Shown: in pieces, positions 50,144 through 56,278 of the stretch
Position numbering within the stretch: position 1 is the first letter of the stretch
How the letters are laid out: the number at the start of each line of letters is the position of its first letter
NCBI RefSeq assembly: GCF_014696135.1
Contig: NZ_JACJPP010000007.1
Location: forward strand, 620,001 to 684,000
Reading direction: 5' to 3'
Source of the DNA: Nodosilinea sp. FACHB-141
Lineage (GTDB): Bacteria; Cyanobacteriota; Cyanobacteriia; Phormidesmidales; Phormidesmidaceae
Length of the DNA stretch: 64,000 nucleotides
Notes under the pieces: model-generated
Seen by the model: the letters and a program-made list of their open reading frames with translations, nothing else
Told to the model about the DNA's origin: nothing
Databases searched by the model: none
Made by a program: the position numbers and the translations under genes

Positions 50144-50818
50144 TTAGCGAGGAGCAGCGCCGTAGGTGCGGGGGCTACGAGCACCGGTAGCGGCACCAGC
50201 AAGGGAAGCCACTAGGCCCAGCAGAGACCCTAGAGCAAATGACCAACCAACCTTGGCAGCATTGCCAGCAATGTTTTGGGCTTGCTCTTGACTCACGTTG
50301 GGGTCAGCGGCATTGGGCAGAGCATCGGTGGGCACCTGATTAACGACGGCGTCGGCTCCTTGGGCTACTAGACCAAAAGCACCAGCTACGCCACTCGAAA
50401 GCAGCCAGGCGCTAACGGCCAGGGTAGTTGCCCATAAAATAGCACCGTTGAGCAAAGCGGTTTTGCGGTTCATGGGGCCGCAGGCGCGAGAGGTAACGTA
50501 GCCGCCTAAGAACAAGGCAATCAGCAGGCTGATAATCGACCAGATGCCTACGGCAGTACCAACGTCGCCGGCGTTACTTTGGGCAGCATCTGAGCCAGCT
50601 ATATTGGTGAGGCCCACGGCCGCACCTAAGGCAGTAAGCACGAGCTGAGTGGCGATCGCCACAACTAGACCGGCAATAATTGGACCCCAGCGTACCAGGT
50701 CATGGTAGCCGGTAACGGCAACGGGCGCTGCGTCTGCTATGCGCTGGCCTGGAACGGTACCGTAAGCAGGCTCTTCTCTGTAAGCACCGGAAGCACCGGG
50801 TTCATTGGTGTAGGACAT
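50144..50818 (-). CDS. Four-helix membrane protein of unknown function sharing a module with the repeat protein
   Basis: I do not recognise a function for this 224-residue protein. A hydrophilic N-terminal tail (1-40) is followed by hydrophobic segments at about 46-71, 88-108, 122-148 and 188-212. The first helix GLVVAIATQLVLTALGAAVGLT and the block GIWSIISLLIALFLGG closely resemble the N-terminal membrane region of the 1024-residue protein at 53204-56278. Between helices 3 and 4 lies a polar segment with DPNVSQEQAQNIAG. ATG at 50818 follows GAGAGG. It lies next to glgC but on the other strand. Confidence 0.8.
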   Translation of the reverse strand: MSYTNEPGASGAYREEPAYGTVPGQRIADAAPVAVTGYHDLVRWGPIIAGLVVAIATQLVLTALGAAVGLTNIAGSDAAQSNAGDVGTAVGIWSIISLLIALFLGGYVTSRACGPMNRKTALLNGAILWATTLAVSAWLLSSGVAGAFGLVAQGADAVVNQVPTDALPNAADPNVSQEQAQNIAGNAAKVGWSFALGSLLGLVASLAGAATGARSPRTYGAAPR

Positions 50819-53203: not shown

Positions 53204-56200
53204 CTAGGTCCCGGCTGCCCAACCGCCGCCGATAGCAGCAAAGATGGCTGAAATCGTAGCGGTAGCAAAGATCCACCAGGAGGCCGCGGCGGCGGTTTTA
53301 CGGGTGTCTTCCACCTGCTGGTAGGCCTGGTGCTTGATCTCGCTCAAGCGGCTCTCAACCGCATGTTCGAGCTGTTCGGCTTTGCTTAAAGCGCTGTTAC
53401 GGACATCTTCGATCTGGTCGATGATGCGGTTGGCATCGGTCTCTGAGATCGCATCGTGGGAACTCATAAGTGCTACCAACGTGCCGCGATCGACTTGACC
53501 GAGACGTACCTTGAGAGACTCAAAACCTGCTTGAGGGTCATCCAAAAGTTGCTGCAAATCGCGGCGGATGCCGTAGTAGTTGAGTTCGGGGCGACCTAGG
53601 GAGTCAAGATAGTTGCGAATTCGGGACATAATGCCGCTCACAACCGACGTAACCCGCGCCTGCACATTGCGAATTTGGGAGACGACCTGGTTCCGCACCG
53701 ACAGCACCTGATCGACCGCCGCCTCAGCCTCAGCCTGAGTCATATCGGGGCGCTGGGCCAGCAGAGCCACAACGGTATCGCGGTCGATTCTCGACAGGCG
53801 AGCTTGCAAACGCTCGGCCCCTAGGCGGGGATCGTTGAGCAGCAGCTTAAGATCGCGCTTAATGTCGTCAGGATTCAGCGCTGCTTTATCGGTGTTGCGC
53901 AGGTAGTCTTCCAAAGCCGTCTCGAAAGAGACAACCTGGGCCTGGGCCCGACGAGCCAGCCGCTGAGGCATGTGCAGAATATCGCGAACGGTACCCAGCA
54001 CATCGTCAATAATGCGATTGGCTTCTGCCTCGCTGAGGTCTTCACGCTGGCTGAGCAACTGCACCAGGGTGTCGCGGTCCATGGCCGACAGGCGATCGCG
54101 CATGGCCCCCATCCCCGCCTGAGGATTGTTCACCAGTAGCTCTAAGTCGCGCTTAATGCCCTCGGGGTTAAGCTCGGGCTTGCCAGTTTCGAGCAGATAG
54201 CGCTCGATGGCACTGGTGGCTTCGTCGTACTTAGCCTTGGCCTGGGCCGTTAGTGCGCCCGGCGCATTAACCGTCTTGTACCAGGTCGATTCAACCTGGT
54301 CGAGGGTGCGGTTGATCTCAGCCTCAGAGAGATCTTGACGCTGGTTGAGCAATTGCACCAGGGTGTCGCGATCGAACTGGGCCAGGCGCTGACGCAGGCG
54401 ATGGACCCCAGCATCGGGTTCGTGCAGCAGGGTAGCAATGTCGGCCTTGATGCCCTCAGGGTTAAGCTCAGCTTTGTTGGTGTTTTGCAGGTAGTGCTGT
54501 AACCCCATCCACTGGTTCTCAACTCGGGCTTTGGCTGCAGATTGCAGCCCGGCGGCATTAGCCCGCACGTTGTTCATCACCCCTTCTAAACGGCTAGCAA
54601 CAGCCTGAATTTCTGCCTCACTCAGATCGCCACGGGTGCTCAGGGTCTGGGTAAGAGCCTCATAAGTAAAGGGCGAGAACCGCTCTTGCAGGTCATCAGC
54701 ATCGGCGTAGGGATCGTCTAGTAGGCTGCTAAAGGCGCTGGCACCCGTTTCAGATAGCAGCTCTTCGCGCGGAGTTTGACGCAGGAACGTATAGACCTTG
54801 GTCTGTGCATCCTTAGCCGCTTCGAGGCGATAGCGCTCAGAAACTTCGCCCAGGGCTTGAGTCCGCACGACTTCAAGCTGGCGCGAGACCTCGGCAATTT
54901 CGCTCTTAGTTAGCAGCCCCCGCGAAGCCAAAAGCTCGGCGAAGAATGATTGATCCAAGTTCATTAGCTCTTGGCGCATCAGACCGGGGTCGGCAAAGGG
55001 ATCGTAAATGACATCCCAAAACTCTTTCTGCATGCGCTGGGTGTTGAGCTGCCATGGGTAGGCGTTGAGTAGGTAGGTCTCAACGTCGGCTCTAACCACA
55101 CTGTAGCGATCGCTGCCGCTTACCTCGCTGGTAACCGTGTCAACCTGGCTGGTGACCTCGTTCTTGAGCTGCTTGAAGCGATCGCTAATTTTTTGCACGT
55201 CTAGGTCGGAGAGGTCGGCTCGACCCATCACAACACCCATCAAGGTGGTTAGCCCCTGGTTGAGCGGGTTAGTCTTAGCCTCCTTGCCCTTACGCTGCTG
55301 GCGCATTTCGCCAAGAAACTCGTCTAGGCGGCTGCCCAGCGATTCGGCCAACAGTTCCTCTGGGTGGGCTGACTTGAGGTAGTTGACCAGTTCACCCAAG
55401 CTGTCGCCGCCGGAAGCTTTGCCCAGAGCCTTGCTCCAGGTTCCATAGAGGCGATCGGCAATGCGGCTGGCTTCTTTGCGGGAGAGGTCGGTGCGGCTGC
55501 TGACGAGCTTCTCGAAGCTGTCGCGGTTGAGCTGAGATAGGGTGTCGCGATCGGCGATCGAAGTCAGATCAGACTCGCGAAGCAGGCGCTCAAACTCAGC
55601 TTCTAACCCTTCAATATCTAAAGAAGGGGAGGCGAGAGAAGTAACGTACTCTTGCAGAGTGTCTTTGATATCTTTACCTGACCAACCGGCAGTGAGTTCG
55701 CGGCGCACAGCGGCAGCGGTGGCTTCGGCGGTCTCGATCAGCTGGTTGCTAGCCATCTTGGCACCCATGGCCCCGGTAGCAGCCCCCATCAGCGACTGAA
55801 AACTAGAGGTGGCAGTCTTAACCACCGACCCAATTAGCGACCCAACGGTGGTTGAGCTGAACCAAAACAGCAGGCAAAAGTAGGTGCCCCACACCACCAA
55901 CCCGGTGATGGCGCCTAGCAGCGCGCTGGTGTAAAGGCTGAGCTTAACGGCTAAAAAGCAGGCAAAAAAGAGGGCCAAACTAACCGTGATTAAGGTCCAA
56001 AGGCCAAATTTGGTGGCAATTTTTTTGTCACCGCTACCAGAGCTGCTGCTACTGCTGCTACTCGATGAAGACTGGCCGATGTAGGTGAGGCCAGCGGCGA
56101 CCGACAGGTTGGTTAGCAAAAGCTGGAAGCCAAAGGCCAAAATTACGCCCGAAAGTAGGGCGATAAAAAACTGGGGGCCAGAAAAAATTAGGGAGGCCTC

Positions 56201-56278
56201 TTCAGGGGTGGTAACTCCTGGAGCCACTACCTGGGCCAGAGGGCCACTTAATAGGTTTAATCCAATGTGCTCAATCAC
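53204..56278 (-). CDS. Large membrane protein with eight tandem helical repeats, function unknown
   Basis: I do not know a function for this 1024-residue protein. It has an N-terminal membrane module with hydrophobic segments at about 36-66, 91-113 and 118-152, an 11-serine run (70-80) between the first two, and a C-terminal hydrophobic helix (1000-1022, WWIFATATISAIFAAIGGG). Between them are eight copies of a helical unit of about 74 residues starting near 208, 297, 399, 495, 593, 691, 789 and 887; the last five start exactly 98 residues apart. The repeat core reads ELNPEGIKRDL, RLxxxDRDTLVQLL and DLSEAEANRIID. A shared membrane module links it to the protein at 50144-50818. Confidence 0.88.
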   Translation of the reverse strand: MIEHIGLNLLSGPLAQVVAPGVTTPEEASLIFSGPQFFIALLSGVILAFGFQLLLTNLSVAAGLTYIGQSSSSSSSSSSSGSGDKKIATKFGLWTLITVSLALFFACFLAVKLSLYTSALLGAITGLVVWGTYFCLLFWFSSTTVGSLIGSVVKTATSSFQSLMGAATGAMGAKMASNQLIETAEATAAAVRRELTAGWSGKDIKDTLQEYVTSLASPSLDIEGLEAEFERLLRESDLTSIADRDTLSQLNRDSFEKLVSSRTDLSRKEASRIADRLYGTWSKALGKASGGDSLGELVNYLKSAHPEELLAESLGSRLDEFLGEMRQQRKGKEAKTNPLNQGLTTLMGVVMGRADLSDLDVQKISDRFKQLKNEVTSQVDTVTSEVSGSDRYSVVRADVETYLLNAYPWQLNTQRMQKEFWDVIYDPFADPGLMRQELMNLDQSFFAELLASRGLLTKSEIAEVSRQLEVVRTQALGEVSERYRLEAAKDAQTKVYTFLRQTPREELLSETGASAFSSLLDDPYADADDLQERFSPFTYEALTQTLSTRGDLSEAEIQAVASRLEGVMNNVRANAAGLQSAAKARVENQWMGLQHYLQNTNKAELNPEGIKADIATLLHEPDAGVHRLRQRLAQFDRDTLVQLLNQRQDLSEAEINRTLDQVESTWYKTVNAPGALTAQAKAKYDEATSAIERYLLETGKPELNPEGIKRDLELLVNNPQAGMGAMRDRLSAMDRDTLVQLLSQREDLSEAEANRIIDDVLGTVRDILHMPQRLARRAQAQVVSFETALEDYLRNTDKAALNPDDIKRDLKLLLNDPRLGAERLQARLSRIDRDTVVALLAQRPDMTQAEAEAAVDQVLSVRNQVVSQIRNVQARVTSVVSGIMSRIRNYLDSLGRPELNYYGIRRDLQQLLDDPQAGFESLKVRLGQVDRGTLVALMSSHDAISETDANRIIDQIEDVRNSALSKAEQLEHAVESRLSEIKHQAYQQVEDTRKTAAAASWWIFATATISAIFAAIGGGWAAGT
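53399..55657 (-). repeat. Eight tandem repeats inside the large membrane protein gene
   Basis: The repeat units cover residues 208-281, 297-372, 399-472, 495-568, 593-666, 691-764, 789-862 and 887-960. Units 5-8 are most alike (YL...LNPEGIKRDL...DRDTLVQLL..R.DLSEAEAN), whereas units 1-4 are diverged. Linkers of about 24 residues look helical. This suggests recent duplication at the C-terminal side, or stronger constraint there. Confidence 0.85.

Follow-up and report, generated by a model that had tools for sequence, protein, structure and literature searches.

To our knowledge, what sets the spacing of the internal membranes of cyanobacteria is poorly understood. Neutron data give centre-to-centre distances between thylakoids of 110-630 Å, the wide ones having room for phycobilisomes, as quoted in PMC4726155. 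For the thylakoid curvature protein CURT1, two helices that span the membrane and two soluble ones are predicted, and Synechocystis without its CURT1 homolog shows a disturbed thylakoid organisation (PMC9950537). The CAAD domain, a homolog of Curt1/CURT1, directs ValRS to the thylakoids of Anabaena (PMC4893482). Here we describe a gene in a stretch of 64,000 nucleotides from Nodosilinea sp. FACHB-141 (contig NZ_JACJPP010000007.1, positions 620,001 to 684,000; G000:C7:620001-684000 of the 5.9-Mb genome in our numbering), hereafter the window. The gene (53204-56278, minus strand, GTG start) encodes a protein of 1024 amino acids (aa) with membrane helices at both ends and eight tandem repeats in between, which we call the rod protein; the plus strand of the same frame holds many stops.

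In order to place this protein, we compared it with the described systems closest to it. Genes of the CurT/CURT1 (CAAD) type adjoin one clade of rod paralogs, not that of the window, and the two kinds of protein would both act on membrane architecture. Unlike CURT1, however, the rod protein has no CAAD domain, PF14159 being absent from its Pfam scan at E values up to 1. Like spectrin-like helical rods, it is predicted to have tandem helical units, continuous joining helices and the architecture of a long spacer. In contrast to these, its unit of 98 residues would consist of three short helices and one long helix, and Foldseek gave no significant match in the PDB.

Our best reading, put forward tentatively and as somewhat short of an even chance, is that of a stress-associated, membrane-anchored cytoplasmic rod of fixed length; its role would be mechanical, that of a spacer, a tether or a scaffold, most plausibly at the thylakoid. 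The helical rod would sit on the cytoplasmic side of the membrane, its N end held by a module of three membrane helices and its C end by a single membrane helix. Each of the eight units would form a node of short helices, from which a long helix runs to the next node (about 46 residues between later units). Such a rod may have originated from a widespread family of small membrane proteins with links to stress, in which a helical unit was multiplied, and it would keep membranes in order under dehydration, salt or oxidative stress.

Repeat array and fixed register

The initial annotation, made from the DNA letters, had proposed eight tandem repeats, the last five exactly 98 residues apart, between an N-terminal membrane module and a C-terminal hydrophobic helix. 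We built a repeat profile from repeats 5-8 of the window protein and of 38 relatives, with repeats 1-4 excluded. As listed in Table 1, eight domains were found in the window protein, aligned from residues 208, 299, 399, 497, 593, 691, 789 and 887. Their envelopes start at 208, 297, 399, 495, 593, 691, 789 and 887, the same numbers as had been proposed, and the 98-residue steps from 495 to 887 were thereby confirmed. Residue autocorrelation over residues 190-985 recovered the period as well, with its top lag at 98, the next at 196 and 294, and a lag-98 value that was reached by 0 of 300 shuffles. Hydropathy peaks at residues 37-55, 93-111, 113-153 (broad) and 998-1016 agreed with the proposed membrane module and terminal helix. 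Two details held in part. A run of 11 serines is present at residues 70-80 but is not conserved, the relatives inspected having mixed S/D/H/G loops instead; and the core DRDTLVQLLxQRxDLSEAEANRIID, described as strongly kept in repeats 5-8, is exact in repeat 6 alone and drifts in repeats 5, 7 and 8.

Spacing was then measured in the relatives with a frame of 700 aa or more, 70 proteins once the divergent L057 had been set aside. These are not independent, since several genomes supply two and nine are the named relatives, with 64-95% identity to the window protein. The comparison of repeat numbers, which the initial annotation had called for, detected eight repeats in 37 of the 70, seven in 31, ten in L055 and six in L071. 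In every one of the 31 seven-repeat relatives a distance of 181-234 residues separates the first detected repeat from the next, and a divergent second repeat has therefore probably been missed in them rather than being absent. Repeats 5 and 8 start 294 residues apart in 60 of the 70 proteins (290 in seven; 283, 291 and 299 once each), and repeats 3 and 8 start 488 residues apart in 56. The start of repeat 8 and the WW motif of the C-terminal membrane helix are 113 residues apart in all 70. The stretch from the membrane module to repeat 3 is far more variable (51 proteins measured).

We further compared repeats by position in 22 eight-repeat proteins less than 75% alike, taken out of 36. The best match in another protein was the repeat at the same position in 3095 of 3696 comparisons, and in 2990 of the 3696 this same-position repeat was more alike than any other repeat of the own protein. 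These results indicate that the array predates the split of these lineages and undergoes no ongoing homogenisation. A conserved identity of each repeat position would also be expected if every node were a docking site for something different, with the length of the rod incidental. Such a scaffold for partners is compatible with the fixed-length rod proposed above, but the spacing appears stricter than docking alone would need, and it has no known partner; we regard it as unlikely.

Predicted fold and membrane topology

Both the fold and the topology of the rod are predictions. An AlphaFold2 model of the whole protein was weak, with a predicted local distance difference test score (pLDDT) of 57.8 and a predicted template modelling score (pTM) of 0.31. 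A model of repeats 6-7, computed from an alignment of 88 repeat pairs, reached a mean pLDDT of 82.2 and a pTM of 0.52, and it showed nodes of short helices and a helix, 60-105, running unbroken into the next unit. The predicted unit consists of three short helices plus a helix of about 46 residues that enters the following unit. In the weak whole-protein model the long helices measure 18, 29, 44, 45, 46, 46, 46 and about 52 residues, the shorter linkers of 18 and 29 residues being those after repeats 1 and 2.

The positive-inside rule serves as a guide to membrane topology, and we counted lysine plus arginine (K/R) as means over the 39 rows of alignment A1. The N tail has 0.7, the loop after helix 1 has 2.8, the loop between helices 2 and 3 has 1.0, and the stretch after helix 3 has 4.3; 5.2 stand before the C-terminal helix and 0.2 beyond it. 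By that rule, the distribution suggests that the rod is cytoplasmic and that both of its anchors enter the membrane from the cytoplasm, a modest indication, with several stretches near zero net charge. The idea of a rod or spacer with membrane anchors, raised in the initial annotation, thus found partial support in the anatomy, the predicted all-helical fold and the fixed spacing, and modest support in the charge pattern.

Instead of holding a rod, both anchors could lie in one membrane, the long helices resting flat on its surface as a coat of the apolipoprotein or LEA type that would stabilise a single bilayer in drying. The long helices are amphipathic, with a best 18-residue moment of 0.35-0.69, but coiled coils and bundles commonly show such moments too. 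Pfam models of the apolipoprotein type match below their cut-off in 3 of 88 members (best 1.2e-5) and in a truncated relative (2.3e-5), and some relatives have stress-gene neighbours. However, thylakoid lipids are in part anionic, and the mean net charge of -26 that we found for the rod would be poor for binding them; nor would a coat need nodes with conserved DRDT-type cores. We consider a surface coat somewhat unlikely.

Comparison with known families

Searches of Pfam, NCBIfam, PHROGs, PADLOC and the PDB yielded no convincing characterised family, in line with the earlier statement that no function had been assigned. One match above its Pfam cut-off was to the HU-type family PF00216, with 37.6 bits for the whole protein (cut-off 22.4, E 2.6e-9, best stretch 733-769). 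It was also found in 18 of the 88 repeat pairs, and a PHROG family of HU-type DNA-binding proteins matched with E 3.7e-8, the sole PHROG match at E up to 0.01. One could accordingly imagine a membrane-anchored nucleoid or DNA-binding protein made of HU-like units. However, the match spans profile positions 1-37 of 90, an alpha hairpin, and positions 38-90 are absent. HU/IHF proteins share with the rod this helical hairpin pattern of about 37 residues, but their full domain includes the arms, which are the DNA-binding part. When the genome was searched with PF00216, the true HU scored 104.6 bits over positions 1-89, whereas the best piece of the rod scored 15.4, below the cut-off. An hhalign comparison of the repeat profile with the genome's own HU gave a probability of 0.07% and no alignment, and the rod is acidic. 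HU-type DNA binding was rejected on the hairpin-only match and the negative hhalign result, despite the score above the Pfam cut-off, and is scarcely credible; we take the match to be a shared hairpin pattern.

NCBIfam gave two matches only, both far under their cut-offs, and PADLOC gave none. A phage or defence protein was rejected as well, with no PADLOC match and the HU-type family as the only PHROG match. Searching the PDB with the single sequence returned nothing, and with the repeat profile six matches at E 0.027-0.63, none convincing. Foldseek against the PDB had a best E of 0.12 and nothing under 0.001, and VIA-align 2 a best Z of 7.8 over 99 residues with a designed helical filament, a level that is common for helical models according to its own note. 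These two results gave no support for a known fold. No recognisable study of the rod protein was found in the literature, although one under the locus tag of a model strain may be missed. As far as searched, this is an uncharacterised cyanobacterial family.

Small relatives in other phyla

A tblastn search of plasmids with the full rod protein returned only four records, all of Sinorhizobium medicae and matched at the membrane module. The 304-aa protein of S. medicae aligned with the rod family profile at E 2.1e-12 (hhalign), and when used as a query itself it found 158 plasmid records, the four included, for the most part from Rhizobiales. For a closer look, ten small loci were picked for diversity among the 50 matches listed, and nine of these were annotated. 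The relatives sampled measure 239-350 aa, come from Alpha- and Betaproteobacteria and Bacteroidota, and are annotated as 'PhnA-like protein' (a name only) or as hypothetical membrane protein. An alignment of eight of them matched the rod family profile at E 1.8e-15 over 222 columns (hhalign). Like the rod protein, they have the N-terminal membrane module, and the aligned ones also have a helical region, though a short one, and a membrane helix at the C end; unlike it, they have at most one repeat and, being uncharacterised themselves, they lend no function.

One recognisable repeat was detected in a 350-aa protein of Spirosoma, which scored 25.0 bits with the repeat profile; of 561 reversed or shuffled controls, 230 were reported, with a maximum of 5.4 bits. 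In hhalign this repeat aligned over 85 columns with 27% identity (E 1.2e-5, probability 81%). Eight proteobacterial small members gave 0.2-4.9 bits with the same profile, no significant repeat similarity, so that solely the membrane module is secure for them.

A gene of the DUF2382 or YsnF/AvaK type lies within about 1.5 kb in seven of the nine annotated small loci, the exceptions being L117 and L118; this is a habit of the small family, no strict requirement. The avaKa gene is reportedly connected with dehydration tolerance, to go by the title of Kimura et al. 2022. Among cyanobacteria, the membrane module is also present in a small protein from a frame of 287 aa (G145:C1 at about 1689361-1692246), which lies about 2.2 kb from a DUF2382 gene and in this resembles the small relatives of proteobacteria. 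Judged by these comparisons, the rod seems to be an expanded form of a small, stress-linked and uncharacterised membrane protein, a link to the stress islands of other phyla that the initial annotation had not seen.

Distribution and paralogs in cyanobacteria

A single-sequence search matched in 45 of 292 sampled cyanobacterial genomes, some of them solely with small proteins carrying the membrane module, and a profile search in 43, among which G038 has just a 390-aa relative. This leaves 42 rod genomes, taking in G056 with a truncated copy of 287 aa and G064 with a copy in two frames; 40 of the 42 measure 4.6 Mb or larger. The closest named relatives are on contigs of Nodosilinea, Leptolyngbya and Phormidium (tblastn, best segment up to 94%).

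HetR was found in 37 of the 42 rod genomes and in 27 of the 250 others, as might be expected of a structural protein of septa or cell-cell contacts in filamentous cyanobacteria. However, five rod genomes have no HetR match and 27 genomes with HetR have no rod, and these counts weaken such a role. The charge pattern suggests a cytoplasmic rod, and short relatives exist in Alphaproteobacteria and Bacteroidota. A part in multicellularity is thus very improbable.

Many rod genomes carry two paralogs of about 1040 aa each. In the window's genome we found one full-length rod, together with a 502-aa protein on contig C11 that has both the membrane module and the C-terminal helix, along with one repeat or more. 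This shorter paralog lies 15 bases downstream, on the same strand, of a 255-aa protein that is rich in Lys and Ala and, judged by eye, resembles LEA proteins (L002:529-2820); Pfam gave nothing for the latter but a sub-threshold match to a phage fibre. Inside the window, 2.4 kb from the rod gene, a 224-aa protein repeats the membrane module (Table 1), and a copy of it lies near the rod gene in five of the nine named relatives. With a divergent relative of 922 aa as its root, a FastTree tree showed two paralog groups. The group with the window's copy was supported at 0.998, and the other at 1.0 without L052 and L053 but at only 0.41 with them.

Several irregular copies were observed. A 1227-aa relative (L055:6447-10127) has ten detected repeats, the two additional units apparently lying within the array. 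A 287-aa relative (L056:7067-7927), perhaps a remnant, retains roughly the final two and a half repeats of the array together with the C-terminal helix, and its neighbours are YflT/DUF2382, DUF2382 and ferritin-like genes. In L072, from G064, the rod gene is in two frames of 836 and 279 aa about 1.5 kb apart. In addition, six of the nine named relatives have a small open reading frame (ORF) of 84-140 aa upstream of the rod gene and on the same strand. The list of ORFs of 80 aa or more in the window holds no counterpart, and what is conserved there may therefore be non-coding.

Gene neighbourhoods

In order to look for functional context, we analysed 68 cyanobacterial stretches, 65 of them with a long rod. 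The neighbours included CAAD genes (12), YflT-type genes (12), BON lipoprotein genes (11) and a gene for a 135-aa protein (8). All CAAD and BON neighbours adjoin the paralog group other than that of the window, and so do the YflT neighbours save in L056, the truncated copy, and L090. Pfam identified representative neighbours as CAAD (2.1e-29, L049), BON (7e-12) and YflT (1.7e-10, with DUF2382 at 2.6e-33), and further ones as a catalase in L051, a ferritin-like protein in L056 and YflT in L080; the 135-aa protein, tested from L078, had no Pfam match. These four genes, YflT, BON lipoprotein, CAAD/CurT and the 135-aa protein, were seen as a set adjoining the rod paralog on the opposite strand. 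A BON gene and its neighbours (Npun_F3786/F3787/F3789) are up in an alkane overproducer (PMC7660261) and may be linked to the rod. Because just one paralog clade, not the window's, adjoins CAAD/CurT-type genes, the indication of a thylakoid placement is indirect. At the level of whole genomes, DUF2382 was found in 39 of the 42 rod genomes and in 17 of the 250 others.

Table 1. Features of the rod-protein gene in the window, followed by associated features in the window and at related loci (L numbers)
Feature	Position	Strand	Basis
Rod-protein gene, 1024 aa, GTG start	53204..56278	-	ORF and repeat profile
Membrane helix 1 (residues 37-55)	56114..56170	-	Hydropathy peak; helix 35-69 in weak AlphaFold2 model
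11-serine run (residues 70-80), loop joining membrane helices 1 and 2	56039..56071	-	Non-conserved
Membrane helix 2 (residues 93-111)	55946..56002	-	Hydropathy and AlphaFold2 model
Membrane helix 3 (residues 120-138; hydrophobic up to about 153)	55865..55921	-	Hydropathy and AlphaFold2 model
Repeat 1 (residues 208-296)	55391..55657	-	39.2 bits, repeat profile
Repeat 2 (residues 297-398), most divergent	55085..55390	-	14.8 bits, repeat profile
Repeat 3 (residues 399-494)	54797..55084	-	18.6 bits, repeat profile
Repeat 4 (residues 495-592)	54503..54796	-	49.1 bits, repeat profile
Repeat 5 (residues 593-690)	54209..54502	-	128.9 bits, repeat profile
Repeat 6 (residues 691-788), contains best HU-type hairpin match 733-769	53915..54208	-	130.4 bits, repeat profile
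Repeat 7 (residues 789-886)	53621..53914	-	116.9 bits, repeat profile
Repeat 8 (residues 887-984)	53327..53620	-	121.0 bits, repeat profile
C-terminal membrane helix (residues 998-1016), carries WW motif	53231..53287	-	Hydropathy
224-aa paralog of N-terminal membrane module, without rod	50144..50818	-	Residues 40-161 of rod, E 2e-7; profile E 2.7e-10
Small upstream ORF, 84-140 aa	L034:5131-5550; equivalent place in L035, L036, L037, L041, L042		
Complete YflT-BON-CAAD/CurT-135-aa set	L047, L075, L079, L080, L081, L085		
Partial YflT-BON-CAAD/CurT-135-aa set	L071, L076, L077, L078, L084		

Weighing the proposed role

The reading as a stress-associated rod starts from the repeats, their fixed register, the family relation and the gene neighbourhoods of the relatives, all of which our analysis established. 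From these we infer the identity of the membrane, the mechanical role and the use of the window's copy under stress. Several findings weigh against it. The rod gene of the window lies next to glgC, the 224-aa paralog and an SDR gene, and no DUF2382, CAAD, YflT or BON gene adjoins it; the DUF2382 matches of this genome are on a different contig. Different genes surround the rods of the window's clade; in several genomes they encode a universal stress protein and an ABC transporter of the NMT1-like kind. As the window's copy belongs to the other paralog group, with other neighbours, the stress reading is borrowed from relatives. Even among cyanobacterial rods, DUF2382 lies close only in L049, L051 and the truncated L056, the remaining YflT neighbours having no DUF2382 match there, and three rod genomes have no match to DUF2382 at all. 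The Fisher values of co-occurrence, 1.9e-31 for DUF2382 and 3.7e-24 for HetR, overstate the evidence, since they ignore phylogeny, which the co-occurrence follows. On the structural side, the whole-protein model is too poor to give the overall shape or length. The topology rests on few charges, the helix 2-3 loop that would be outside having a mean of 1.0 K/R, and the stretch following helix 3 is near zero in net charge. Finally, our literature search found no localisation or expression record for the rod.

In a more specific form of the proposal, the double-anchored rod would bridge two membranes. It would span the phycobilisome-filled gap that separates facing thylakoids, or the thylakoid from the plasma membrane, and would set or lock their distance in drying or salt. 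End to end, the long helices listed above for the weak model would come to at most about 49 nm, by arithmetic at 1.5 Å per residue. We regard this ruler as quite improbable.

Collectively, a double-anchored rod whose units are near-invariant in number and spacing offers a concrete candidate, open to testing, for a factor in membrane spacing, and with the rod there is a first lead on a bacterial family that is widespread but has so far been labelled 'PhnA-like' or hypothetical.

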